Below are positions 6,080-34,880 of a DNA stretch of 43,028 nucleotides, one piece after another (positions within the stretch are counted from its first letter, which is position 1; the number at the start of each line of letters is the position of its first letter). The notes under the pieces are model-generated. The model did not search any database. It had not been told where the DNA came from and worked only from the letters and a program-made list of their open reading frames with translations. Source of the DNA: Elainella saxicola E1 (GTDB taxonomy: Bacteria > Cyanobacteriota > Cyanobacteriia > Elainellales > Elainellaceae); the NCBI GenBank assembly GCA_002796835.1, contig LUGL01000003.1:58382-101409 (forward strand). Direction: 5' to 3'. The position numbers and the translations under genes were made by a program.

Positions 6080-6383
6080 GGTTTATACTCCCGATCAACA
6101 CTTATACTGCCGCTCAAATTACTGCTGCTCAAACGCCGATTCGCGAGTCAACAATGACAACCGATTCGACCTGATCGACTCAGGTATCACTTTAGTCAAT
6201 TCCCTTCAGCCTCGTCGGAATCGATCAGGATTCCTTAAGATTACAAGCTAGCAATTTCAGCTTGAGATAGCTCAAATCCATCCACATCCAATCCGGTTTC
6301 GGCATTCACCTGTTCAGCCTGCAAAAGTCCGAGCTTCCTATAAAGTCTGTGCTCTCGCTGTGCTCTGCTCGCCAGATGCGAGA
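6080..6383. other. Intergenic region between divergent pgl and hpsJ-like genes
   Basis: About 300 bp separating two divergently transcribed genes, so both promoters should lie here. A TATAAA hexamer at 6339-6344 could be the -10 of the plus-strand gene, but there is no matching -35. No RNA gene or strong hairpin is seen. Confidence 0.4.
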
Positions 6384-7199
6384 ATGACCGTTGAACTCAA
6401 ATTTCTTGCCATGACCTCTAAAAAATTAGTTAGTAGCCATTCCACCAATACTCTGATTGCCCGCATTCTTAAACTTGCTGGTTTGATCATCACTTTAGTG
6501 GCGATATTCGACATCTTGATTACGCCGATGCCTTATCAATTCGGCGATCGGCAGTGGCAAATTGATCTGGTGACCTCGTTGGTCGATCGGGGTATTGTGC
6601 CGCTGGTTGGGATTGTGTTATTTCTAACGGGCTTTGGCATTGATGGTCCCCGTACTGGAGAATTGCAGAGAGCAATCTGGCAGGATCCTCGCTTCTGGGC
6701 TTGTGTATTAGCAAGTTTGCTAGGGTTAGTCTATGTGCTGGCCTTTCCCTTGCATTTGAATAATGTACGGTTGGAGAACCAGTCAGCGATCGAACAGGTG
6801 AGTCAGCAAGCAAGCCAAGCAGAAACTGAGTTAAACAACCGCATTCAGACTGAAATCGCCTCACGGCGGCAGCAAATCAACCAACTGATAACGGCCACGG
6901 ATGATCAAATCCAGCAGTTGACGAAAAATGGCCAGCTCACTCAAGACCAGGCAGATTTGATTAAGAAATTTAAGGCAGACCCCAAATCGGTAGAGCCATT
7001 CCTCAAGAAACAGGAGGAGGATCTGCGATCGCAGTTACAAACAGAACTGGGGAATCGTAAGCAGCAGGTTCAAGATTCCCGGAAGACTCAAGACTTGAAA
7101 TCGGGCTTGCGTGTGAGTATCAGCAGTCTTCTACTCGCGATCGGCTTTATTGCTGTGGGATGGATGGGTTTATTTCATCTGATTCAAAGGCAAATGTAG
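6384..7199 (+). CDS. HpsJ-like integral membrane protein with coiled coil
   Basis: A membrane protein of 271 residues if it starts at the ATG at 6384. Hydrophobic helices occur near the N-terminus (ILKLAGLIITLVAIFDILI), in the middle (GIVPLVGIVLFLTGF and FWACVLASLLGLVYVLAF) and at the C-terminus (ISSLLLAIGFIAVGWMGLF). Between the third and last helices lie about 120 charged, Gln/Glu-rich residues that look like a coiled coil. This layout and the QFGDRQWQIDLVTSLVDRG segment match what I recall of the cyanobacterial HpsJ family, linked in Nostoc punctiforme to hormogonium polysaccharide export. Alternative starts are a GTG at 6360 and an ATG at 6411. It is 18 kb from the hpsA-C genes in this window. 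The biochemical function of the family is unknown. Confidence 0.7.
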   Translation: MTVELKFLAMTSKKLVSSHSTNTLIARILKLAGLIITLVAIFDILITPMPYQFGDRQWQIDLVTSLVDRGIVPLVGIVLFLTGFGIDGPRTGELQRAIWQDPRFWACVLASLLGLVYVLAFPLHLNNVRLENQSAIEQVSQQASQAETELNNRIQTEIASRRQQINQLITATDDQIQQLTKNGQLTQDQADLIKKFKADPKSVEPFLKKQEEDLRSQLQTELGNRKQQVQDSRKTQDLKSGLRVSISSLLLAIGFIAVGWMGLFHLIQRQM

Positions 7200-16820: not shown

Positions 16821-18047
16821 GTGCAATCTAGCCAAGCTCTTACTCTGCCCTCCGGCCCATTGAAAATTTCTGCACAGACTTTTCCCAGAGATCCTGCGCT
16901 CATTCACTTCTCTTTGGTGATTCCGACCTATAACGAACGTCACAATATTGCCAAACTGGTGCAGCAGCTTACGGCCTTACTCGATCAGACCACAATCTAC
17001 TATGAGCTCATCGTGATGGATGACAATAGTCCCGATCGCACCTGGGAAGTGGCTGAATCACTCATGTCTAACTATCCATCCCTGCAGGTTGTGCGTCGTC
17101 AAACCGAAAAGGGCTTATCGACCGCTGTGATTCGAGGTTGGCAAATTGCGCGAGGGGATGTTCTGGGCGTCATTGATGGTGACTTGCAGCATCCGCCTGA
17201 AGTGCTCTTGCAATTATTAGCGGCGATCGAGCAGGGCGCAGATTTGGCCGTTGCCAGTCGGCATGTTGCCGGAGGTGGGGTGAGTGAATGGAGCCTTTTG
17301 CGGCGTTTTTTATCGCGTGGTGCTCAAGTTTTAGGGTTGCTGATTTTGCCTAACGTGGTCGGACGAGTTTCCGATCCCATGAGTGGTTACTTTTTGGTTC
17401 GACGGGATGCGATCGCGGAGCGAGTCCTAAATCCGTTAGGCTACAAAATTCTGCTAGAAGTGTTAGGCAGAGGTAATATTCAAGCGGTCGCAGAGGTTGG
17501 CTATGTCTTCCAGGAACGGCAGCAGGGAGCCAGCAAAGTCACCTGGCGGCAATATGTTGACTATCTGCTGCACCTGGGCCGGTTACGTTCACGAGGCAGA
17601 ATCTCCCAATTCCGCCAAAAATATCAACTGCCGCTACAACGATTGATTCGATTTGGCCTAGTCGGCTTCAGCGGCGTCTTCATCGACATGGGAATGCTCT
17701 ATTTGCTGAGCGATCCAAGCACGTTGGCCTGGGGATTGACTCGCAGCAAAATCATTGCCTCCGAAATCGCGATCATCAACAATTTCTTGTGGAACGATCG
17801 CTGGACGTTTGGCGACATTTCCAGTCAGCAAAAGGGGTGGCGCAAGCGATTAAAGCGGCTGTTAAAGTTCAACTTGATTTGTCTGGCCGGATTGCTCTTA
17901 AATGTGCTGTTGCTCAATCTGCTATTTAATTGGCTGGGGGTCAATCGCTATTTGGCAAATTTGATCGCGATCGCAATTGTCACACTGTGGAACTTCTGGC
18001 TAAACCTAAAGCTGAGCTGGCGCGTGACGGACGCCCAGGAACCCTGA
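16821..18047 (+). CDS. GT2 glycosyltransferase fused to GtrA membrane domain
   Basis: A 408-residue protein. Residues about 30-260 form a dolichol-phosphate-mannose-synthase-like GT2 domain, with SLVIPTYNERHNIAKLV, the VMDDNSPDRTWEVA nucleotide-sugar site, GVIDGDLQHPPEVLL and DPMSGYFLVRRDAIAE. From about 273 (IRFGLVGFSGVFIDMGML) to the C-terminus a GtrA-like domain follows, with four predicted helices including LICLAGLLLNVLLLNLLFNW. Such fusions transfer a sugar to polyprenyl phosphate and help flip it for glycan or glycoprotein synthesis; the sugar is unknown. The start is a GTG at 16821. Its last 68 bp overlap the convergent antiporter gene. A link with surface polysaccharide export in this window is speculative. 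Confidence 0.88.
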   Translation: MQSSQALTLPSGPLKISAQTFPRDPALIHFSLVIPTYNERHNIAKLVQQLTALLDQTTIYYELIVMDDNSPDRTWEVAESLMSNYPSLQVVRRQTEKGLSTAVIRGWQIARGDVLGVIDGDLQHPPEVLLQLLAAIEQGADLAVASRHVAGGGVSEWSLLRRFLSRGAQVLGLLILPNVVGRVSDPMSGYFLVRRDAIAERVLNPLGYKILLEVLGRGNIQAVAEVGYVFQERQQGASKVTWRQYVDYLLHLGRLRSRGRISQFRQKYQLPLQRLIRFGLVGFSGVFIDMGMLYLLSDPSTLAWGLTRSKIIASEIAIINNFLWNDRWTFGDISSQQKGWRKRLKRLLKFNLICLAGLLLNVLLLNLLFNWLGVNRYLANLIAIAIVTLWNFWLNLKLSWRVTDAQEP

Positions 18048-24282: not shown

Positions 24283-24623
24283 TGCAACACTTCTCCACAG
24301 TGGCCAACTAGGTGTAGCCAGACAGGATTCTAGATGTTAGGTAGGTTTTGGAGAGGAGTAAAAAGCTCCTAGCCAACAATCGATCGATTCGAAGCATGAC
24401 CTAAAATTCAGGGCGATAGTTCAGTTAAAGACTAGCAAACTTCGAGTTTCCGTAAGCCCGGTCTAGCCCCACTCTACACAAATTTTGTTGGCTCAGCTTC
24501 TCATTTTAGATAAACATTTCTACTAACGATGTCAAATCTCTGAATGAGGGTCAGTTTTTTCCAACAATGCCTCCAGTTCTTTGTGTATAATGAGAGACTG
24601 TGTCCATCATCCCAGGGAAAAAT
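24283..24623. other. Spacer between divergent SRPBCC and rpmB genes
   Basis: About 340 bp with the rpmB promoter -10 near its right end. I see no RNA gene. A partly overlapping minus-strand frame at 24501-24917 is antisense to rpmB and rejected. Confidence 0.5.
24586..24591 (+). promoter_or_regulatory. Consensus -10 box of the rpmB promoter
   Basis: A perfect TATAAT lies 33 bp upstream of the rpmB ATG. There is no good -35 hexamer at 16-18 bp spacing, so activity may depend on flanking contacts or an activator. Position and perfect match make it a credible housekeeping promoter element. Confidence 0.6.
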
Positions 24624-24860
24624 ATGGCTCGTAAATGTGAATTGACTGGTAAACAAGCGAATAATGCTTATGCAGTTTCTCACTCCCACCGACGCACTAA
24701 AAAACTGCAAGAAGCTAACTTGCAGGAAAAGCGCGTGTGGTTTCCCCAAGAAAAACGCTGGGTGAAACTTCGCCTTTCCACAAAGGCAATTAAGACTCTG
24801 GAACGCAAAGGGTTGTATGCAATGGCAAAAGAGGCAGGGATTGATCTCCGCAAATATTAA
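24624..24860 (+). CDS. rpmB: Ribosomal protein bL28
   Basis: A 78-residue basic protein, [20 protein letters not shown], with the typical [19 protein letters not shown] middle and a C-terminal [16 protein letters not shown]. It is a component of the large ribosomal subunit. The cyanobacterial form keeps one cysteine and lacks a full zinc-binding set. The start at 24624 is preceded by CAGGGAAAA; eight upstream in-frame codons are excluded. It is a single-gene unit with its own -10 box and an intrinsic terminator downstream. Confidence 0.97.
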
Positions 24861-24928
24861 AGGCTTAGAAAACCTTTGGATGCATGGATTGAGCCTGTTT
24901 AACCTTAGTTCGTACAACTTTGATGAAA

Positions 24929-24955
24929 GGGCAGCGTTAATTCGCTGTCTTTTTT
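24929..24955 (+). terminator. Intrinsic terminator of rpmB
   Basis: GGGCAGCG and CGCTGTCT can pair around a TTAATT loop, giving about 7-8 base pairs including one G-T, and the stem runs straight into six T residues. It lies about 70 nt after the rpmB stop codon. This is the clearest factor-independent terminator in the window. Confidence 0.85.
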
Positions 24956-25571
24956 AATGTCTTTGAACAATTTGACGTTTTGCAACAGCTTCAATACGCA
25001 ACTTGGCTGATTTTTCGGCAATTACATTCGAAATCAATAAAATATAAGTGTCATATTTTACATCTACTTACTTAGAAAGCAATTTTGAACGAACTGAAGC
25101 AGCAGAGATTTCATTTACCTTAACTTTGGCTTTAGGAGCGATCGGTTTTTGTTGATTGATGCTGCACTGATTAGATTGCAATAGGTGTTGTGATCGATTT
25201 TTCTGCTGAAGTGGGAATCATCAATGCTTAAAGACCAGACGAGCCCATTAATCGCCATCTCCGATGGGTGTGACTTGATAGTTGTGATAGGAAAATCGCG
25301 TTGTGAGAAAACTAATTTCTATCTTCCTTCGTAGTTTCCCAGTTCACTGTTGTAGCTTTTGTTCTTCGTAGTTTCTCTGTTGATTTCACAGTTCTGAATT
25401 GTTAGTACAGTGATCGCTCATAGCATCAGCTTGTAAACTTTAGGTGACCTCGCATTCTGCGATCGACTTCTCCTGAGTTTATAGCTCAATCAAATTATTC
25501 TGATTCTAATTTTTCAAAAACTCCTGGCTTCTTAATCTTCTCCATCATTCCGTCTGACAGGTAAAGCAGAT
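24956..25571. other. Long AT-rich leader upstream of hpsA
   Basis: About 615 bp without a supportable gene between the rpmB terminator and hpsA. It contains an AT-rich inverted repeat, AAAATAT/ATATTTT (25039-25059), a short CCATC/GATGG inverted repeat (25255-25267) and a 12-bp direct repeat (25327-25375). Its length suggests complex regulation or a long 5' UTR for the hps genes, as expected for a developmentally controlled surface system, but no promoter hexamers stand out. Confidence 0.5.
25327..25375 (+). repeat. Direct repeat CTTCGTAGTTTC, two copies, upstream of hpsA
   Basis: The 12-mer CTTCGTAGTTTC occurs at 25327-25338 and again at 25364-25375, 37 bp apart start to start. Related TTTCmCAGTTC words occur at 25335-25345 and further right. 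They lie about 200-245 bp upstream of the hpsA ATG and may be paired binding sites for a regulator; this is inferred from position only. Confidence 0.5.
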
Positions 25572-28500
25572 ATGTCAACCCAAAAGGCAATCAGGGCAGC
25601 CCAATCTCTCCTCCGACAGGTGAGCCGCATGACACAGAGCCTCACGAAAGGACTTGTGAGCTGGCTTCTGCGCAGTCTGCTAATTATTGGTAGGCAACCC
25701 CTCTCCAGAGCAGGGTTTGTGTTACCCACTACAGTTCTGCTGCTACTTGTTGTCGTTTTGACCGTGGGCGCTATCAGCTACCGCACCTTCACGCGCACTC
25801 AACAAGCAGCTACGGAACGGCAGCAGCAAGTTGTTTATAACGCCGCCACGCCCGCGATCGATCGGGCTAAAAGTAAGCTTGAGTTTCTATTTGACCCCAA
25901 CAAAGACAGTCGAGCAGGCGGAGTTCCCAGCCAAACGCAGTTGTTAGGCATGATGCTCAACGATGAGCGAGATTTGGGCAACGGCGTAATCGTGACCCAT
26001 TTCCCCGATGACAAAAGCGTCGATCCATATACTCTGGACGGGGAAGAGCGCATCGACATCAACGGCGACGGTAAAAAAGATAATGCTTGGCGCTATCGGG
26101 TTGACCTGGATGGAGACGGCAATGTCAGCTCTCCCGGCAACAAAGATGGTTGGGCTGTTTATTCGATCCTCTTCACTGCCCCGTCTGACTCAAACAGTTT
26201 GCGAGATGCCAGAACAACAGCATGGCAGACACGAGCGAATGCCCTTCAGGTCAGGAATGCTCCACTGAGTAATGCTTCTCAATCAAATAACATTTGTCAG
26301 CGCAATGATGCTGCGAATGCTGGTACTCCGCTGGTGAATGGAGACGGCTGGTTCCCTGATCAACGCAACACAACCAAAATTCGTAAGAACTTTCAGGTCA
26401 GTGCTTATGTAGTTCCTGATAACCCAACCGGTACAGTTGCAACCCTAGAGTTTCAGCAGGATCGAGAGGCAACGCAAGGTTTCAAATGGGCAGCTTGGTT
26501 CCGCAACGATCTGGAAATTTTCCCAGGTCCACGATTCAACTGGAACGGAGCCATGCACACTGAGGGCAGCCTAATTATTGGAGGCAGCAGTTTCCGGGGG
26601 TACTTAGTCAGTTCTCCCCAATCTTGCATCAACAGTTCCGATGCTTCCGAAATTACAGCCCGGTTGAACAGCAACCCAACGAATGATACGACAGCGCTTC
26701 CAGACTTTAGAGGGCGTTTTATTACCGGAACAATTCGTGATAACAACTTCAGTGGCAGCGCCATCATTGATACTGAGTCTAAGAATCCTGACAACCAACA
26801 GCCTGCAATGGGAGTAGCACAAGATTCTGTTGCACCAGGGTCTCTCAAACCGATCGATTTTTCTTTGGAACCGGTTGTGCTTCAAACGACTGGTCGGTCT
26901 AAACCCCGCAATTCCACCGTTACCTCAGCCAATTTCCAAGAAGGAACAAATTGGACTGGCGGTCAGCTAAATAAGGGCGGACAAGGGCGGGTACGCAACA
27001 TCGATAAAGTGACAACGCCCTATGTAGATGATACTTTCCGGGCAGACAACCGCTGGGGACCTAAGCCAACCTGGGGACCTCAAAGCTTGTCAATCGGCAT
27101 CCTGGATGAAAATGATGCTGGGAGCGCAACCGCTAAAATTGGCGATCTGATTACAGGGGCCCCAATTCTGACAGGCAGCGATCCCACTCCCGGCTCTGAT
27201 TCAGCAAGTGTTGGCTTGGATGGCTATTGGGAAAGGCGGGCTCGGGTGGATGGCTTGCGGCTGATTGTGGGTCAGCGGCTTGAGCTAGGTGATCCAGCAG
27301 GTTGGGGTGGACCAGGGAGCTTCAGTCCAACTGGTGGTGGAGCATCCATTGCTCTGACAAATGAACCCCTACGTCCCTGGCAAACTGGCTGCTCTGGCAT
27401 AACCTGTAATGAAGAGCGTCAACGCAAAGCCCTGTGGGATAACCTCGCCGCCGTTCAATCGACTGCCATTTATCACAACGCAACGGATACAACTGCAGAT
27501 GCTCGTGACTTTCCAGATGCTTGTTTAGTCACCACGGTTCATCCCGGCACACCCACAACGCTTGATCGCAGCTCTACTTTTGAACAGTTGGCTTACGGCA
27601 TTCCAAAGACTGCCTTCCAAAACGCCTATGGCCCAGAAGAAATCATCAGCGACTTCTTCCGGGGACGGGGGACAAATGGCTGGGAATTTAGCACCCCCAC
27701 TGCGGCTGACTTCAAGAATCCTAATAGTGCTCTGATGACGGCATTGAGAAATCTGGCTTACTTTGCTGGTGATCCCTATGGAGGAACTCCATCCTTCAAG
27801 CCTGAACAGCAGCCAACGGGACAGGTACATCCCTATCCCAGTATGGCAATGTGGGGCGATTTTTCTAATCTTCGTCGGGTTTTTCAAGATCTCCTGGAGA
27901 AAGGCGCGACTTACGATAGTCTGAGCCCAGCCGATAAAACAACCTTGCATACTGCGGCTTGCACGCTAGGTATGCTGGCTTACAACTTGGACTATCTAGA
28001 AAAACTCAAAGTCTACGATCTGAGCCCAGCAAGTGACCCAACCCGAGGCACTGGCGTGTTGCAATCCTTGTCCGGCTTTACGGATGATGAGATTAATCCT
28101 GCTGGTTTAACGATCACAAACAATCTTCTGGGTAATACCAAATATAGTGCGGGCTTGCGGGGCCGGATTCGTGTGATCGACCACATTGCCAAGGGGTATA
28201 TCAACGCAACGAATGTTACAAACATCCCGGTTGACCAACGTCCACCAACCAGCCTGATCACCAGCATGGCAGACCTCATGCCACCGACTGTGGAGCCATC
28301 TGGGGGCATGAATCTCTTGGTTTGGGATGCTAATAAGTCTAATAACCCTGAAACTTATGTGCGTCTGCTGGAGCGGTGGCGCGATGATTCGACAACTTCA
28401 GCCGTTCAAAAGGATGAACTGAACAAGATCATTTCGTTGGCTCAGCTCATTATTACAAAAGAGCAGGTTGCTCGCGATCGCACCTGGGGCTTCAGAGGAA

Positions 28501-30644
28501 ACTACGGAGGTCAAACAATCTATAGTATCGATCGTTTGGTCAGTACCGGGCCACTCGGAGACTGTGGTTTTAGCCTGGATGCTACCAACAAAACCCCCTT
28601 CGGCGGGTGGCTGCTAAATCTTAAGTTGCCATTCTCAGCAAAGAATTTAAACAACGGTGTAACTGATTCCTCAACTGAGTTGGTGGATCCGTTCTATCGC
28701 CTCTGCTCCTCTCGCCCTCGCTATCCCATTCTCTATTCTCTGTTTCCAGCTAAGTTGCAGGATGCGATCACTGCAGTACCTGCTGATTTAAACACAGCCT
28801 ATGCTGGTGGATTTAAATCTCATCAGGATATTTCAGATCCAACAGAACTCGGGTTCACCCGAGATGATGAAGATAGCAAGCCGCTTTTGGGCAAATTCAT
28901 CACCAATGAAAACTCAGGACGGACCTATGCAGTCGTGCGGCCCTCTGCTGTTGCTACCCGCCCGTTACGGATTAACCAATCGGGGATTACGCTGGGAACG
29001 GCTGGAACGGCTTGGACTCTACCCACTGACCCGGGTTCACCAGGCACAGGCACAACTCCCAATAGCAATCAGTTCAACCTGATCAAAGCTTGTAATAACA
29101 AGTGCTCTGAGCCCAATAACGCCAATAGTACAACCTTCCAAGCCCCCAAGGTGGGTACGTTGATTCGGGTTGCCTTCAAAGATGGTGCATTCTTCAATGG
29201 TCGAGAAATGTTGCCTGTTCGCACTCTCGACCTGGACCTCGATTTGATGCGGAGCAAGTCCTATTCCAACGACTGGTGGCTGCCGAAGAAGGGAATTGTC
29301 TACGCCTTCCGGGAAGATGCTGTTTCGGAGTCCACAATTGTACGGCCTAACAGTGGCAATACCTGGTTGGGATGCGACACCGACGCTGAGTTGAAGACAG
29401 TCACTTGTGCGATGAGAACGGGCGATGTTTCCGCCTTTAACTCGAAAGATCCACCGCTGAACGACAAGAACTCCATTACCCCGAAAGCAGTTGATTATTA
29501 TGCTGATCCCGATCGCCGTCCTCACGGATTCCGATTGCGGCAAGGCGCATCTCTCAAACGCGATGGAGATGAAGGACGAGGCCTCTCTCTGATCAGTGAC
29601 AACCCAGTCTATGTGCAAGGCAACTTCAACCTGCACCAACAGGGCGGGACAAGACTGGAGGAGTTCACCCCGTCTCAGTTTCTAGCGTTCAATGCTGATG
29701 GTAGCTACAGCAACTTCTATGACCGGACTGACCTCGATCTCAGTTTCGCCGATCGCAATAAAGATGAATGGCGACCCAGCGAAGTTGTAGCAGATGCTGT
29801 AACGCTGATCTCCTCCAATTTTTGTGATGGCAGCATTGAAGATACTTTCGCCAGTGCTGGCGCTACTTCAATTCCAGCCTGGTTGCGCACTCGCTATGGT
29901 TGCGGTGCAAGTGCTTCCGTCACTTCCTATCTCAACCAAAACCGCCCAGAAGTCGCAATTACGGGCACTGATACGACTTCCTTTACAAAAGGGGCTGTTT
30001 GGGTTCGCACCAACTTGATTGACAATTTCCCAAGAGCGATGGTTACGACAAGAGTTGCAAGTGGGCGCAACTATGATGAAGGCGAGTCACCCATGTTCGT
30101 CGCTCGCCAGGGCCGTCCAGCCTATTGGGGAGATATCAGTGGCAATAACAAGGTCTACGACAAGACCTATATGGACATGTCCGACAATAAACAGCTGATC
30201 GGCGCAACCGATAATACTCGGATGAACCTGATTCTGGTCAGCGGTTTAGTGCCCTCACGGGAAGGCCAGTCCTATGGTGGGTTGCACAACTTCCCTCGCT
30301 TCTTGGAGTCTTGGAGTAACCTGTTTATCTCAGGCGCATTCTTGCAGCTCAATTTCAGCAACTATGCCACCGCTCCCTTTGATCAGGAGAACTGGCAAAT
30401 TGGCTCTCCAGACCCAACGACAGGATCTGGAGCGAACGAATGGATTCGCTACTATAGTCCACCTAACCGACGCTGGGGTTATGATGTGGCCCTTCAGTAT
30501 GCTCCAGCTGGACCTGTAGCACAGCGTTTCCAATTCGCCGAAGACACCCGCAGTGAGTTTTATAGTGAACCACCTGCGAACGATCCCTACATTCGGAATC
30601 TCTGTAAGCAGGTTCCGGGTAAAGCTGCGACCTGTCCAACCTAA
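25572..30644 (+). CDS. hpsA: Hormogonium polysaccharide biosynthesis protein HpsA
   Basis: A very large protein of 1690 residues. The N-terminus has a basic stretch, then AGFVLPTTVLLLLVVVLTVG (about 47-66), resembling PilX-like minor pilins: Gly before a hydrophobic helix, but without the usual Glu at +5. After the helix come two calcium-loop-like motifs, DINGDGKKD (162-170) and DLDGDGNVS (178-186). The rest is a long Gly/Asn/Asp/Pro-rich extracellular-type region with few cysteines. It matches the cyanobacterial HpsA family as I recall it; in Nostoc punctiforme hpsA is needed for hormogonium polysaccharide and gliding. It leads a cluster with hpsB, hpsC and a FimT-like gene, only 20 bp before hpsB. 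The ribosome-binding site is weak. Confidence 0.88.
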   Translation: MSTQKAIRAAQSLLRQVSRMTQSLTKGLVSWLLRSLLIIGRQPLSRAGFVLPTTVLLLLVVVLTVGAISYRTFTRTQQAATERQQQVVYNAATPAIDRAKSKLEFLFDPNKDSRAGGVPSQTQLLGMMLNDERDLGNGVIVTHFPDDKSVDPYTLDGEERIDINGDGKKDNAWRYRVDLDGDGNVSSPGNKDGWAVYSILFTAPSDSNSLRDARTTAWQTRANALQVRNAPLSNASQSNNICQRNDAANAGTPLVNGDGWFPDQRNTTKIRKNFQVSAYVVPDNPTGTVATLEFQQDREATQGFKWAAWFRNDLEIFPGPRFNWNGAMHTEGSLIIGGSSFRGYLVSSPQSCINSSDASEITARLNSNPTNDTTALPDFRGRFITGTIRDNNFSGSAIIDTESKNPDNQQPAMGVAQDSVAPGSLKPIDFSLEPVVLQTTGRSKPRNSTVTSANFQEGTNWTGGQLNKGGQGRVRNIDKVTTPYVDDTFRADNRWGPKPTWGPQSLSIGILDENDAGSATAKIGDLITGAPILTGSDPTPGSDSASVGLDGYWERRARVDGLRLIVGQRLELGDPAGWGGPGSFSPTGGGASIALTNEPLRPWQTGCSGITCNEERQRKALWDNLAAVQSTAIYHNATDTTADARDFPDACLVTTVHPGTPTTLDRSSTFEQLAYGIPKTAFQNAYGPEEIISDFFRGRGTNGWEFSTPTAADFKNPNSALMTALRNLAYFAGDPYGGTPSFKPEQQPTGQVHPYPSMAMWGDFSNLRRVFQDLLEKGATYDSLSPADKTTLHTAACTLGMLAYNLDYLEKLKVYDLSPASDPTRGTGVLQSLSGFTDDEINPAGLTITNNLLGNTKYSAGLRGRIRVIDHIAKGYINATNVTNIPVDQRPPTSLITSMADLMPPTVEPSGGMNLLVWDANKSNNPETYVRLLERWRDDSTTSAVQKDELNKIISLAQLIITKEQVARDRTWGFRGNYGGQTIYSIDRLVSTGPLGDCGFSLDATNKTPFGGWLLNLKLPFSAKNLNNGVTDSSTELVDPFYRLCSSRPRYPILYSLFPAKLQDAITAVPADLNTAYAGGFKSHQDISDPTELGFTRDDEDSKPLLGKFITNENSGRTYAVVRPSAVATRPLRINQSGITLGTAGTAWTLPTDPGSPGTGTTPNSNQFNLIKACNNKCSEPNNANSTTFQAPKVGTLIRVAFKDGAFFNGREMLPVRTLDLDLDLMRSKSYSNDWWLPKKGIVYAFREDAVSESTIVRPNSGNTWLGCDTDAELKTVTCAMRTGDVSAFNSKDPPLNDKNSITPKAVDYYADPDRRPHGFRLRQGASLKRDGDEGRGLSLISDNPVYVQGNFNLHQQGGTRLEEFTPSQFLAFNADGSYSNFYDRTDLDLSFADRNKDEWRPSEVVADAVTLISSNFCDGSIEDTFASAGATSIPAWLRTRYGCGASASVTSYLNQNRPEVAITGTDTTSFTKGAVWVRTNLIDNFPRAMVTTRVASGRNYDEGESPMFVARQGRPAYWGDISGNNKVYDKTYMDMSDNKQLIGATDNTRMNLILVSGLVPSREGQSYGGLHNFPRFLESWSNLFISGAFLQLNFSNYATAPFDQENWQIGSPDPTTGSGANEWIRYYSPPNRRWGYDVALQYAPAGPVAQRFQFAEDTRSEFYSEPPANDPYIRNLCKQVPGKAATCPT

Positions 30645-30650
30645 GTTCCT

Positions 30651-30655
30651 GGAGG
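30651..30655 (+). promoter_or_regulatory. Ribosome-binding site deciding the hpsB start
   Basis: GGAGG abuts an ATG at 30656, too close to serve it, but is 9 nt from the ATG at 30665. This supports the downstream start for hpsB. Confidence 0.75.
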
Positions 30656-30664
30656 ATGTCTGTC

Positions 30665-31474
30665 ATGACCCTGCAACGTTCATTGATCAACGCTCGTCTG
30701 TCTCTGCTGAATCGGCTTGCTGTCACTCAGGACAAACATGCTCCTGAACAGGGGTTAACTATCATGGAGTGCCTAGTCGCCATTATGTTGATTGGCCTGA
30801 CTGTGGCAATGGTCACTCCACCACTGTTGGTGGCGACGGCAAGTCGAGTCCAAAACCGCCGTGCTGAACAAGCCGCCCAAGTCGCTCAAGATGAGATCGA
30901 TCGGATTAATACAATGGTGCAGCAAGGGACTCATGAAAGTCGTTTTCTGCCGAAGAGTATTGGCCCATTGGTTGGCGGGGATTTCAGAACAGCAGTAGCT
31001 GCCCCAACTACACAAGCAAGTCTTTTGGCCAGCCCACGGCGACGTGATATCTCAGCTTGTCCGGCAGCTTCTGCACCATATGGCACCTATGCGGCTTATA
31101 CCAACCAACAATTGCTAGTCAACCAGGCCCTGCCAGTTGACGTGGATGGTGATTGCACCCCAGATTTCTTCACACAAGTTTTTCGGACAGATGGGAAAAC
31201 GAGTACGTCTGAGCTGCAGAAACCTTTGATAAACCAACGTCCTGCCAAGTTTGAGATTGGTGTTCGAGTTTACTCAGCACTCGCCAGAAACAACTTTGGC
31301 ACTGGGAACTTGAAAACTGATCCAGCTCCCATCTTGGCAACAGGTGGGCAGGGCAAACAAGCCACTAATCCTCTGATCACCGTTTATAAATCGATTGCCT
31401 GGGGAGAAAAATCAGATGTCCTGTGTGCTTCTTTAAAGGCAACTGATGTTCAAAAGATTGCAACCTGTCAATAA
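30665..31474 (+). CDS. hpsB: Pseudopilin HpsB
   Basis: A 269-residue type IV pilin-like protein. A basic leader of 30 residues ends at Gly30, followed by LTIMECLVAIMLIGLTVAMV with Glu at +5 of the predicted mature protein, the prepilin peptidase (PilD) signature. The helix continues into a heptad-like NRRAEQAAQVAQDEIDRIN and then a globular domain containing DVDGDCTPDF. The sequence resembles the HpsB pseudopilins that accompany HpsA in filamentous cyanobacteria. It lies 20 bp after hpsA with a strong ribosome-binding site, so the two should be co-translated from one message. It likely joins a short pseudopilus or caps type IV pili that aid polysaccharide secretion. Confidence 0.85.
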   Translation: MTLQRSLINARLSLLNRLAVTQDKHAPEQGLTIMECLVAIMLIGLTVAMVTPPLLVATASRVQNRRAEQAAQVAQDEIDRINTMVQQGTHESRFLPKSIGPLVGGDFRTAVAAPTTQASLLASPRRRDISACPAASAPYGTYAAYTNQQLLVNQALPVDVDGDCTPDFFTQVFRTDGKTSTSELQKPLINQRPAKFEIGVRVYSALARNNFGTGNLKTDPAPILATGGQGKQATNPLITVYKSIAWGEKSDVLCASLKATDVQKIATCQ

Positions 31475-31590
31475 GATTTCCTAGGGCTGCGTTCTTGGAC
31501 TCATGACACCGGTTCGCTTTTTAGGGCATTCAATTCACCACCCATTCACAAATTCGGAGTTCGGCTCCTCAATGATTCAGCTAGAACACT

Positions 31591-32712
31591 ATGGCTAAAC
31601 ATTCCTTCTGGTTTCGTCTCAAAAAAGCTTTCCTGAAATCTCGTCAGCATCGTTTTCAAGGCTTCACGTTGCTGGAACTCCTGGTGGTGGTTGCGATCTC
31701 AGGCATTATTATGTCAGGGCTGACCTACATTGTGGTGCAAATGATGACCGCAGACCAGCGAGAGGCATCCCGTTCCGATACCCAACGGGAAATGCAAATG
31801 GCTCTCGACTATATGAGTGCTGAACTGCGAGAAGCCATCTATGTCTATCCCGGTAAATATTTAGAATGTGGTCCCAAGTACGCCATTGATGGAACTTGCC
31901 CCGAAAGCTTCACTAAATTTTTGCCCGCTGCAGTTAATAAAAATAGTGTTCCGGTCTTAGCGTTTTGGAAACAGCAGCCATTTCCAGACGCTATCAAAAC
32001 GAAATGTGCCTCAGCGGTCCAAAATGGAGTCGCCTGCCTAGCAGGACAATCCTACGCATTGGTTGTTTATTCCTTACGCAAAAACGATACGACTGATAGT
32101 CCTCGCTGGCAGGGCAAAGCCAGAATTACTCGCTATGTGCTCAGTCAATTCGATTCTGATGGCAATGCGAATGCAGGCTACCTTGATCCGAGTACCCCAG
32201 GCACTGATTTCACAACTTGGCCCTACGGCAAAAATGAGAGCACAGGTGCCCTCACCAATCTCCAGACAACCACACCGACTGGCAGCGCAGATACACTCGT
32301 CGATTTTGTTGGCTTTAACTTTGGAGATGCAGGTTTATCGACTCAGATAGGACAGGTTGGCTCCTGCCCAGATCTACCCTCTGACAATCCAACTGATCCA
32401 AAGGTTGAGGAATATCAACTTACCCCTAGCAATAATATGCTGACGGGTACTTTTGCTGGAGTACGCAGCTTCTATGCTTGTGTGGCAGCCCCAACCAAAC
32501 AAGTAAAAGATGGTGGAGTAACCAGAGACTTACCCGATGCAACCCGCTATCGAGACATCATCTTGTTCCTCCGGGGCAGTGCAGCGGGTAGACCGGGCAT
32601 TAGCTCCGATGAAGCGGGTGGCTTCTTCAAAAGCAATAACCCTGATATTTTGCCGACCTTGCAAACCCGTGTTTTGAGCCGCAGTGTTTTAGGACGGAGC
32701 CCGACTGAATAA
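31591..32712 (+). CDS. hpsC: Pseudopilin HpsC
   Basis: A 373-residue prepilin-like protein. The basic leader ends at Gly24 and is followed by FTLLELLVVVAISGIIMSGL with Glu at +5, a textbook class III signal peptide for PilD. The amphipathic continuation DTQREMQMALDYMSAELREA and the long C-terminal domain, with an SLRKNDTTDSPRW-type variable region, are like PilW/GspJ minor pilins and HpsC. The start at 31591 (MAKHSFWF) has only a weak ribosome-binding site. It is separated from hpsB by 116 bp, with no strong terminator seen, so it is probably still in the same unit. Predicted location is the cell envelope, embedded by its N-terminal helix. Confidence 0.85.
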   Translation: MAKHSFWFRLKKAFLKSRQHRFQGFTLLELLVVVAISGIIMSGLTYIVVQMMTADQREASRSDTQREMQMALDYMSAELREAIYVYPGKYLECGPKYAIDGTCPESFTKFLPAAVNKNSVPVLAFWKQQPFPDAIKTKCASAVQNGVACLAGQSYALVVYSLRKNDTTDSPRWQGKARITRYVLSQFDSDGNANAGYLDPSTPGTDFTTWPYGKNESTGALTNLQTTTPTGSADTLVDFVGFNFGDAGLSTQIGQVGSCPDLPSDNPTDPKVEEYQLTPSNNMLTGTFAGVRSFYACVAAPTKQVKDGGVTRDLPDATRYRDIILFLRGSAAGRPGISSDEAGGFFKSNNPDILPTLQTRVLSRSVLGRSPTE

Positions 32713-32765
32713 AACGCAGGTTTCACAATTCATTTCCCATTGTTTTGTCCGGAGTCACTTAATCC

Positions 32766-33308
32766 ATGAGCAAACCAGCCCTCCGTCACTCAATTACTGG
32801 CTTCACGCTTGTTGAATTGCTAGTTGTGATTGTTATTGCAGGAGTTTTGGCAGCGATCGCCGCACCTGGCTGGCTCAGTTTTGCCAATAGCCGCCGTGCA
32901 GATGCAGGCAGAGACCAAGTTTTGCAGTTGCTCAGGCAAGCTCAGTCTCAAGCGACCCAAAGTCGGCAAGCAAAGATAGTCAACTTTATTACGCCAACCA
33001 ACAATTTACCAAGCATTCAAATTGCTGGGATCGATCAACGGATTGATGGGCAGGTTCCCAATGTCAAGGATTCTAAGCTGTTTGGCTTAAAGGTAATCAA
33101 TGGCAATGTGGCAGGTTGCGAGGGGTCAGCAACAAGCTGTGTAATCTTTGACGATCGTGGCAATGTTAAGCGTCCAAACAACGATCTTGGAAGTGGGATT
33201 AAAGTAGTCGTCACTTCTCCGGCAGATAATGCAGGGAGTAGGCGCTGTGTAATTGTTAAAACGCTACTTGGGGCAATGGAAAAAGGGAAAGGAGCTGCTT
33301 GCGATTAG
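32766..33308 (+). CDS. FimT/GspH-family pseudopilin (HpsD-like position)
   Basis: A 180-residue prepilin. The leader is short (12 residues ending in Gly), followed by FTLVELLVVIVIAGVLAAIA with Glu at +5 and PGWLSFANSRRADAGRDQVL, characteristic of FimT/GspH minor pilins. The C-terminal domain has two likely disulfide cysteine pairs (GCEGSATSC and, near the end, RRCVIVKTL with the final Cys). GGAG lies 11 nt upstream of the ATG at 32766. As the third pseudopilin after hpsA it probably corresponds to the hps minor pilin called HpsD in Nostoc, but I am not sure of that name. Some FimT proteins bind DNA for natural transformation, an alternative role. Its stop is 2 bp from the convergent cbiB stop. 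Confidence 0.82.
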   Translation: MSKPALRHSITGFTLVELLVVIVIAGVLAAIAAPGWLSFANSRRADAGRDQVLQLLRQAQSQATQSRQAKIVNFITPTNNLPSIQIAGIDQRIDGQVPNVKDSKLFGLKVINGNVAGCEGSATSCVIFDDRGNVKRPNNDLGSGIKVVVTSPADNAGSRRCVIVKTLLGAMEKGKGAACD

Positions 33309-33310
33309 TG

Positions 33311-34303
33311 TCACTGGATGATCAGTAGAAGCATCGCCAAAACTAGCCAACTGAGAAAACAGACACGGGTTAGTCGCGTCGCCTGCTTAATTTTTTCTGG
33401 CGTAATTGGATCGATCGGATCACCTAACAGAGGCTTGAACTTCACAATCCCTTTGTAATGGTTTTCGCCACCCAACTGGACCTTAAGTACAGCCGCATAG
33501 GCACATTCAATCCAACCTGAATTGGGACTCGGATCCTTAATCGCATCTCGCTGGCAGAGCTGCCAAATTTGACGAATTTGCCCTGATATCAGTCCAATCG
33601 ACAAAACATGAAGACGGCAAGGAAGCCAAGTCAATCCATCTTCCAAGCGGGCACTAAACCAACCTAAATCCTTGTAAGGCAATTCCCGATAACCCACCAT
33701 TGAGTCAAGCGTGCTGGCAGCCTTGTAGACCAACGCTAGTGGAGCACTACCGATCGGCAAAAAAGCCCCCAGAATCGCATAAAACAGCGGAGCCATCACC
33801 CCGTCCGTGGCATTTTCAGTCACCGTCTCCAGCACAGCCCTTAGAATCTCGAATTGCGTTAGGTTCTGCGTATCTCGACCCACATAGAGACTCAATTTCG
33901 ATCGTGCCGTTGCCAGATCATTTGCCGCTAGGGGTTGCAAAACATCTTCAGATGCTCGCCGTAAACTGCGGCCTGCCAAACAGCTAGCCAACAGCACCAC
34001 TTCAACCAGCAATCCCAAGAGCGGATGCAGCCAGGTTACTGCTTGAATCATCCCCCAGCCAATAAATCCACTTAAGCAGAGGGTAAGCACCGTCAAGCCG
34101 ATCCCAGCACCTCGCAAGACCAAGGGATGCTTCAGAAACATCAAACAAAATTGGCTGTAGCGCTGAATTCCCCACCCCATGACCTGAACCGGATGCAGCC
34201 AGTTCCAAGGATCGCCAATTCCATAATCGAGAACTGCTGCCAATAGCAGAACAATCGCAGCCCTCGTAGAATGAAATGAGTCGAAAAGAGACAAGCTATT
34301 CAA
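33311..34303 (-). CDS. cbiB: Adenosylcobinamide-phosphate synthase (CobD/CbiB)
   Basis: A 330-residue integral membrane enzyme of cobalamin biosynthesis that attaches the aminopropanol side chain to adenosylcobyric acid. Family segments are LDYGIGDPWNWLHPVQVMGW near the N-terminus, SLYVGRDTQNLTQFEIL, VTENATDGVMAPLFYAILG and AYKAA-type VYKAASTLDSMVGY, plus C-terminal AYAAVLKVQLGGENHYKG. Five or so helices are predicted. The start is uncertain: a TTG at 34303 is the longest, and a 9-bp tandem repeat spans it. The next TTG at 34294 would also fit. Other cob genes are not adjacent. Cyanobacteria use pseudocobalamin, so the linker may differ from the classic one. Confidence 0.93.
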   Translation of the reverse strand: MNSLSLFDSFHSTRAAIVLLLAAVLDYGIGDPWNWLHPVQVMGWGIQRYSQFCLMFLKHPLVLRGAGIGLTVLTLCLSGFIGWGMIQAVTWLHPLLGLLVEVVLLASCLAGRSLRRASEDVLQPLAANDLATARSKLSLYVGRDTQNLTQFEILRAVLETVTENATDGVMAPLFYAILGAFLPIGSAPLALVYKAASTLDSMVGYRELPYKDLGWFSARLEDGLTWLPCRLHVLSIGLISGQIRQIWQLCQRDAIKDPSPNSGWIECAYAAVLKVQLGGENHYKGIVKFKPLLGDPIDPITPEKIKQATRLTRVCFLSWLVLAMLLLIIQ

Positions 34304-34309
34304 GCTATT
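34292..34309. repeat. Tandem 9-bp repeat at the cbiB start
   Basis: CAAGCTATT occurs twice in a row, spanning the putative TTG start of cbiB. One unit encodes part of the N-terminus if the longest start is used. It could be a slippage-prone spot, but two copies are weak evidence. Confidence 0.5.
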
Positions 34310-34370
34310 AATGTCCCAATGGGTGAAAATATGGACGTAAATCAGCGTCGCCTCCTACTGACTCGGTGAA

Positions 34371-34880
34371 ATGCCAAATCTATCTTCGCAGCATCGATCA
34401 CCCCATGAACGTCGTGCTCATCGTCTTCAGCGGTTGCGGCAGCTCAGTTTTTGGCTCGACAGCGCTATCCCGATTCCCGGCACTCGTCACCGAATTGGCC
34501 TTGATCCTTTAATTGGCCTCCTTCCTGGCGGCGGTGACACAGCAGGGTTGTTTTTATCGGCATTTGTTGTGATAGAAGCAGCCCGAATGGGAGCAACTAA
34601 ATCCACCTTGAGCCTAATGGCCTTTAATATTTTGCTAGAGACTGTAGTTGGTACGGTGCCTGGTCTAGGGGATGTATTTGATGCTACCTGGAAATCGAAT
34701 CTACGGAATCTGGAACTCCTGGAAAAGCAGTTTAACTTACCTCAGCCAGTCCAACGAGCAAAGAACCACTGGTTCGCGATTCTGCTGATTTTAGGGTTGA
34801 TCGTGGTATTTCTCGGTTGCGCCTACCTCTCCTTTCTACTGTTGCGCTGGATCATCCAAACCCTCAGCACCCTGTCCTAG
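34371..34880 (+). CDS. DUF4112 membrane protein
   Basis: A 169-residue protein with a basic N-terminus (RSPHERRAHRLQRLRQLSFW), then GLDPLIGLLPGGGDTAGLFL and ILLETVVGTVPGLGDVFDAT, the paired loops typical of DUF4112, and a C-terminal membrane helix (WFAILLILGLIVVFLGCAYL). Function is unknown. ATG 34371 has GGTGAA just upstream. It diverges from cbiB across 67 bp, so both promoters are compact or overlapping. Confidence 0.85.
   Translation: MPNLSSQHRSPHERRAHRLQRLRQLSFWLDSAIPIPGTRHRIGLDPLIGLLPGGGDTAGLFLSAFVVIEAARMGATKSTLSLMAFNILLETVVGTVPGLGDVFDATWKSNLRNLELLEKQFNLPQPVQRAKNHWFAILLILGLIVVFLGCAYLSFLLLRWIIQTLSTLS

Follow-up and report, generated by a model that had tools for sequence, protein, structure and literature searches.

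Whether the pseudopilins of hps loci export slime or grip it is the question raised by a four-gene cluster in the window, by which we mean the whole stretch of 43,028 nucleotides analysed from the genome of Elainella saxicola E1. The hps genes are listed for Nostoc punctiforme, as hpsA-K, in PMC10581220 and PMC4284469, and the N. punctiforme locus itself lies outside the set compared here. In the window, four genes follow one another on the forward strand, and the open reading frames agree exactly with the original prediction of four genes in a row at 25572-33308, the first encoding 1690 residues. Reading-frame and profile calls assign them to HpsA, an HpsB-like protein, an HpsC-like protein and a GspH/FimT-like pilin, separated, in gene order, by 11, 116 and 53 bases (Table 1).

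Table 1. Features of the cluster and its upstream flank; HpsA ranges from residue 159 onwards are predictions transferred from the model of a homologue
Feature	Position in window	Strand	Basis
rpmB (bL28), conserved neighbour upstream of hpsA	24600..24860	+	same strand, upstream, in at least 45 of 118 HpsA loci (a minimum, given the limited flanks); median 623 bases
terminator-like hairpin 3' of rpmB	24925..24954	+	stem of 12 pairs followed by a T-rich tail
hpsA (1690 aa), encoding a very large pilin-like protein	25572..30644	+	NF038301, 605 bits (cut-off 400)
HpsA leader, residues 1-48, basic, ending at prepilin site G48↓F49	25572..25715	+	alignment; motif count; leader lengths
HpsA residues 49-107, pilin-type N-terminal helix (hydrophobic) and the stretch that prolongs it; mature residue 5 is not Glu	25716..25892	+	alignment; helices in both models; mapping
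HpsA residues ~159-302, predicted strands of pilin-like sheet	26046..26477	+	homologue's model; alignment mapping
HpsA residues ~308-1638, predicted beta-solenoid module with inserted segments	26493..30485	+	homologue's model; 5b5h Z 9.3, ComZ Z 13.1; mapping
HpsA residues ~1661-1667, possible closing strand of the pilin sheet, late in the chain as in ComZ	30552..30572	+	model range on ComZ; mapping
hpsB-like, 272 aa, GspI/PilV-class pseudopilin, G↓LTIMEC	30656..31474	+	NF038303, 58.6 bits (cut-off 150); place in conserved order
hpsC-like, 373 aa, GspJ/PilW-class pseudopilin, G↓FTLLEL	31591..32712	+	NF038304, 116.7 bits (cut-off 200); gspJ 25.9 (cut-off 64.85); order
GspH/FimT-class pilin, 180 aa, HpsD/HpsH position, G↓FTLVEL	32766..33308	+	N_methyl; gspH 35.8 bits (cut-off 80); order

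The score of HpsA against the curated NCBIfam model, gathered over three stretches, exceeds the cut-off, and a search of the organism's own genome found this one copy. The names first given to the next two proteins stand in so far as HpsB and HpsC are the best-matching models and the order is right, but both proteins fall under the curated cut-offs; the HpsB-like protein, which fits by its place between A and C, is for this reason not filed as a member of the curated family. The HpsC-like protein of a relative from the same family (L058) scores 124.8 bits, whereas in the Nostoc locus L100 both B and C pass. The fourth protein passes N_methyl and TIGR02532. No match to the GspI and GspK models was listed for the cluster proteins, and membership of a K-I-J-H set is a matter of fit in order and in weak class scores, the gspH and gspJ equivalog scores being below cut-off. 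By the same two measures, the four proteins fit the classes of the GspK-GspI-GspJ-GspH tip of type II secretion.

Upstream, about 600 bases separate the region of rpmB and its hairpin from hpsA; because the hairpin is terminator-like, the hpsA transcript probably starts independently of rpmB. Same-strand rpmB precedes hpsA in ten families besides the Nostocaceae-like family f6 and the Nostocales sample. Downstream, a cobalamin gene (CbiB) converges on the cluster at 33311. Counts of promoter- and terminator-like sites in the region were not clearly above those in shuffled sequence, and Rfam gave no match over 24400-34400. The reported absence of glycosyltransferases holds for the cluster; the window contains one GT2-type glycosyltransferase (16821-18047), which reaches just 49.6 bits to HpsE (cut-off 300). 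An HpsJ gene lies about 18 kb upstream of hpsA (6360-7199; NF050014, 278.5 bits, cut-off 260), which says little because the HpsJ family is multi-copy in this genome. The genome's best match to HpsK, at 30% identity, was not taken for an orthologue.

Three proteins with class III signal peptides had been counted originally, and all three are real (the HpsB-like, HpsC-like and GspH-like proteins, each with Glu5), but a fourth site, in HpsA itself, had gone uncounted. This site, G48↓FVLPT, has no Glu5; it combines a class III leader, a Gly at position −1 and a hydrophobic helix thereafter, so that the cluster comprises four pilin-like proteins, not three. Lack of Glu5 is a trait of GspK, the K-class member of type II tips. 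Of 116 HpsA frames that the profile found and whose N-terminus is not plainly cut, 115 have the motif GF[VIL][LFI]P at this site (105 GF[VI][LF]P, 8 GFLLP and 2 GFIIP, with none in L089), the 116 being what is left of 121 profile-hit frames once three Slr2018-like frames (GYVL) and two without an N-terminus (the second piece of L088, and L093) are set aside. Glu5 occurs in none of the 105 GF[VI][LF]P frames, and the other ten carry Thr or Met there; as a background, the motif was found in 0 of 784 open reading frames within the first 130 residues. The exceptional frame in L089 (7548-12506) is without the N-terminal prepilin part, and a matching stretch lies upstream in another frame, which makes this a possible frameshift or broken copy.

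The rows of the HpsA alignment had been pre-picked with a G[FY][VI][LF]P[TMLV] filter, and their own agreement on the motif proves nothing; the resulting 71 rows omit nine Nostocales loci, eight of them motif variants that were filtered out and the ninth the cut L093. The general prepilin models TIGR02532 and N_methyl gave no score on HpsA, and PilX_N matched one of 28 HpsA proteins, at E 0.16, and nothing in the organism's own genome. HpsA leaders are long and basic (median 50 residues in 71 proteins, 48 in the window), lengths that depend on the start codon chosen, and 55 of the 71 contain a W-hydrophobic-hydrophobic-R/K motif.

For the fold of the 1690-residue HpsA, a short homologue, that of Dolichospermum circinale (L091:4400-7831, 1144 residues), was modelled at full length. 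AlphaFold2, supplied with 71 aligned sequences, returned a confident model (pLDDT 84.0, pTM 0.82) that has long helices at the N-terminus, a first group of long strands, numerous short ones and helical insertions. In VIA-align, whose list is a realignment of Foldseek's picks, the first rank went to ComZ (6qvi; Z 13.1, 365 of 518 residues, with an r.m.s.d. of 10.4 Å that is loose and compatible with domain movement) and the second to an ice-binding beta-solenoid (5b5h; Z 9.3, 189 residues, r.m.s.d. 3.7), the third rank dropping to Z 4.6. Foldseek alone also placed ComZ first, but weakly (E 0.18, probability 0.11). Residues 86-1112 of the model align on ComZ 6-528, a span that would fit a solenoid set into the pilin sheet ahead of its last strand. 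PilJ is among the VIA-align rows (Z 2.1), and the absence of PilX, PilV and GspK chains from them is not counter-evidence, because the list only re-examines what Foldseek had picked. ComZ, which with PilA2 is among the minor pilins of Thermus thermophilus, is a GspK-like pilin that works with a GspI-like partner; its beta-solenoid is inserted in the pilin sheet, between the last two strands, and was compared by its authors with an ice-binding protein, and the pilin is argued to sit at the tip (PMC6561018). Both top matches thus point to pilin plus solenoid as one architecture. By contrast with ComZ, HpsA is about three times the length of the 518-residue chain, contains extra inserts and has no sequence match to it.

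The fold is carried over to the HpsA of the window on the strength of alignment and of membership of the same family, since its own residues 1-335 modelled poorly (pLDDT 60.4, pTM 0.54), a result taken as uninformative rather than contrary because the fragment is without the late strand. An HpsA profile searched against PDB sequences found nothing relevant (best E 0.32, an NTF2_HH entry), and ComZ was absent from its matches up to E 10, which leaves room for a distant relation. Pfam has no family for the window's HpsA and gave scattered single-member matches among 28 HpsA proteins. One of these 28 carries a PF11999 ice-binding domain (7.5e-18), the solenoid type that ComZ resembles. HpsA proteins range in length up to 3158 residues (L050:7243-16719), with another of 2505 (L076:7416-14933). 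A match to the HpsA model below its cut-off in a control genome, Deinobacterium chartae, is possibly a ComZ-like protein outside cyanobacteria. In the partial literature covered, no text linking HpsA to ComZ or naming it a pilin was found, a weak absence given that subscription papers were outside its scope.

On the predicted structure, the best reading of HpsA is that of a giant tip pilin of the ComZ class; this is the new element, and the link to ComZ is solely a structural one. The structure prediction originally called for fits a pilin fold, a long helix at the N-terminus against an antiparallel sheet, in the homologue through its match to ComZ, and the idea of HpsA purely as cargo gives way to HpsA as a pilin-like subunit in its own right. 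It is very improbable that HpsA is instead a polysaccharide-synthesis protein or a plain surface protein: its NCBIfam name, 'hormogonium polysaccharide biosynthesis protein', would suit such a role, PMC4284469 calls it functionally unknown and another label found in the literature is 'hypothetical membrane protein', but against it stand the prepilin site in all but one of the frames, the pilin-plus-solenoid model that matches ComZ and the conservation of HpsA without linked glycosyltransferases.

This last point emerges from gene order. HpsA matches were found in 90 of 291 genomes of the phylum sample, 69 of them above cut-off, and the neighbourhood was compared for 29 copies from 21 families, the window included and the Nostocaceae-like f6 and Slr2018-like f12 (three loci) left out. 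B and C directly follow HpsA in 28 of the 29 copies (21 families; the exception is L076), and at least one GspH-class pilin also follows in 26. An HpsE/F/G-like glycosyltransferase in the downstream run, which comprises the frames that follow HpsA on its strand with no gap above 1500 bases, occurs in 0 of 29; this count excludes other sugar enzymes and upstream genes (L066 and L071 each have one HpsE/F/G-like frame upstream of HpsA), and four of the runs (L047, L051, one L060 copy and L065) end at the edge of the stretch examined. The proposal that the pilin part is a separate module is well supported by these figures. Two arrangements of pilin genes were seen in passing: in L060 the cluster occurs twice in tandem, and B, C and GspH-class genes accompany each HpsA; in L062 (3285-6954, in f6), four more small genes of pilin-like type, coding for 213, 298, 170 and 251 residues, lie between rpmB and hpsA, so that two tip sets may adjoin there. 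The likeness of the 213-residue protein to pilins is a judgement by eye, Pfam and NCBIfam having given nothing useful.

The Nostocales present a different picture. Their 79 loci hold 80 HpsA copies; glycosyltransferases are linked to 57 of these and not to the remaining 23, of which 15 are clear absences, because the other eight end at an edge; among further f6 copies, linkage was found in one of eight. Sampled Nostoc hps loci share the order HpsA, HpsB, HpsC and GspH class, with rpmB upstream in many relatives, and the window differs from them in lacking the inserted hpsE-G glycosyltransferases and hpsI/J/K beside the pilins. Other gene contents also exist: compact A-B-C-H in Dolichospermum and Anabaena (L091, L092 and L096), and A-B-C-H-I-J-K without E-G in Scytonema, Tolypothrix and Brasilonema (L135, L139, L140, L141, L144, L150 and L166). 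In Leptolyngbya boryana, hpsA-B-C-H bear the consecutive tags LBDG_47480 to LBDG_47510, with hpsE elsewhere, according to a table in PMC10581220; the likeness to the window is one of locus tags, and the part of that paper cited here draws no conclusion about a module. Since the large hps cluster of Phormidium sp. KS contains glycosyltransferases (PMC4284469), their linkage is not confined to Nostocales. In this comparison, the pilin genes are what stays constant, in a position that is conserved, and the glycosyltransferases are what varies. Compactness, first put forward as a special feature of this cluster, is the usual arrangement in the sampled families and implicit in print for L. boryana, so the window is not a special case.

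Which machine the pilins serve was addressed with Pfam models in the organism's own genome, which is 99.99% complete. The search found a single secretin gene and a single PilC/GspF gene, the latter with two domains, and a secretin and GspF apart from those of the type IV pilus, as type II secretion would have, were not seen with these models. The type IV pilus is thus the most likely machine for the cluster pilins. Outside the cluster, the prepilin model, which misses divergent pilins such as HpsA itself, found only two PilA-like genes (C176) and an orphan FimT-like gene (C131). This orphan, on another contig (L041:1315-1980), is a possible fifth minor pilin.

These counts bear on the proposal made for Nostoc hps, in which the four proteins would make up a pseudopilus, similar to that of type II secretion, to drive hormogonium polysaccharide out of the cell. 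In its favour, the pilins sit with glycosyltransferases in 57 of 80 Nostocales copies, but we consider it unlikely, as no separate machine was seen in the genome and the 29 copies from the 21 families are all without a downstream-run glycosyltransferase. The type II K-class member likewise carries a large inserted domain; this GspK insert is alpha-helical (PMC6561018), whereas that of HpsA looks like a beta-solenoid, and no separate type II machine was seen here. The original idea of a minor-pilin tip carrying HpsA is supported by the homologue's structure and the single pilus machine found, but not by the window's own fragment, which modelled poorly.

HpsA also has smaller cousins. A profile built from 25 HpsA proteins, the cousins excluded, finds proteins of 844-853 residues in L057 (1.5e-28), L067 (6.5e-26) and L068 (3.1e-27), the next non-HpsA match being at 0.048; these proteins, all in f12, adjoin two or three pilin genes. 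From layout and size, rather than Synechocystis sequence, we take them to be Slr2018-like. The f12 genomes appear to be those of unicellular organisms with the layout of Synechocystis pilA9-10-11-slr2018. That operon, pilA9-pilA10-pilA11-slr2018, combines several minor pilins with one pilin-like protein, Slr2018, listed as pilA12 (PMC7076178); its deletion abolishes flocculation (PMC6755745), and motility is said to depend on it (PMC5924778). With respect to the cluster in the window, the order is reversed, the pilins coming first, and the larger protein, in L057, L067 and L068, is about half the size of HpsA. The ties of the Synechocystis operon to flocculation and motility suggest adhesion as the common task.

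A tip for DNA uptake, the functional equivalent of Thermus ComZ, would also account for ComZ being the best structural match, and ComZ binds DNA (PMC6561018). We nevertheless regard this as quite improbable for HpsA-B-C-H, because PilA9-12 of Synechocystis, the set that by its layout, not its sequence, would correspond to HpsA's cousin, serves motility and flocculation, and the minor pilin reported to be essential for transformation is PilA5 (PMC12288463).

The cluster probably encodes the K-I-J-H minor pilins that prime and cap the single type IV pilus, with HpsA in the GspK/PilX place and its giant ComZ-like solenoid distal, as adhesin or receptor. In such a tip, PilD would cut the HpsA leader at G48↓F49, and the N-terminal helix would pack with those of HpsB (I class), HpsC (J class) and the GspH-class protein to form the priming complex. 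The solenoid would then be outermost, at the distal end of the fibre, where it may act as an adhesin or receptor, most likely for gliding polysaccharide or neighbouring cells. Cleavage and tip assembly are suggested by sequence and the homologue's predicted structure; ligand and adhesion are further steps of conjecture.

Should HpsA be a giant tip pilin, a genome in which the hps pilins and the polysaccharide genes are unlinked would allow each to be tested apart from the other, and export of slime by the hps pseudopilins could then be told from gripping by direct test. A wider history is possible, though we hold it only tentatively and think it somewhat doubtful: HpsA-B-C-H could be the ancestral and main minor-pilin tip of many cyanobacterial type IV pili, with HpsA as a giant ComZ-class adhesin whose solenoid grips the gliding polysaccharide, and the glycosyltransferases that make this ligand could, in Nostocales, have moved in among the genes for its receptor. 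Were this true, the name 'hormogonium polysaccharide biosynthesis protein' would be wrong for what is in fact the hook of the pilus. The reading of the cluster as a pilus tip suggests how gliding cyanobacteria may grip their surroundings.
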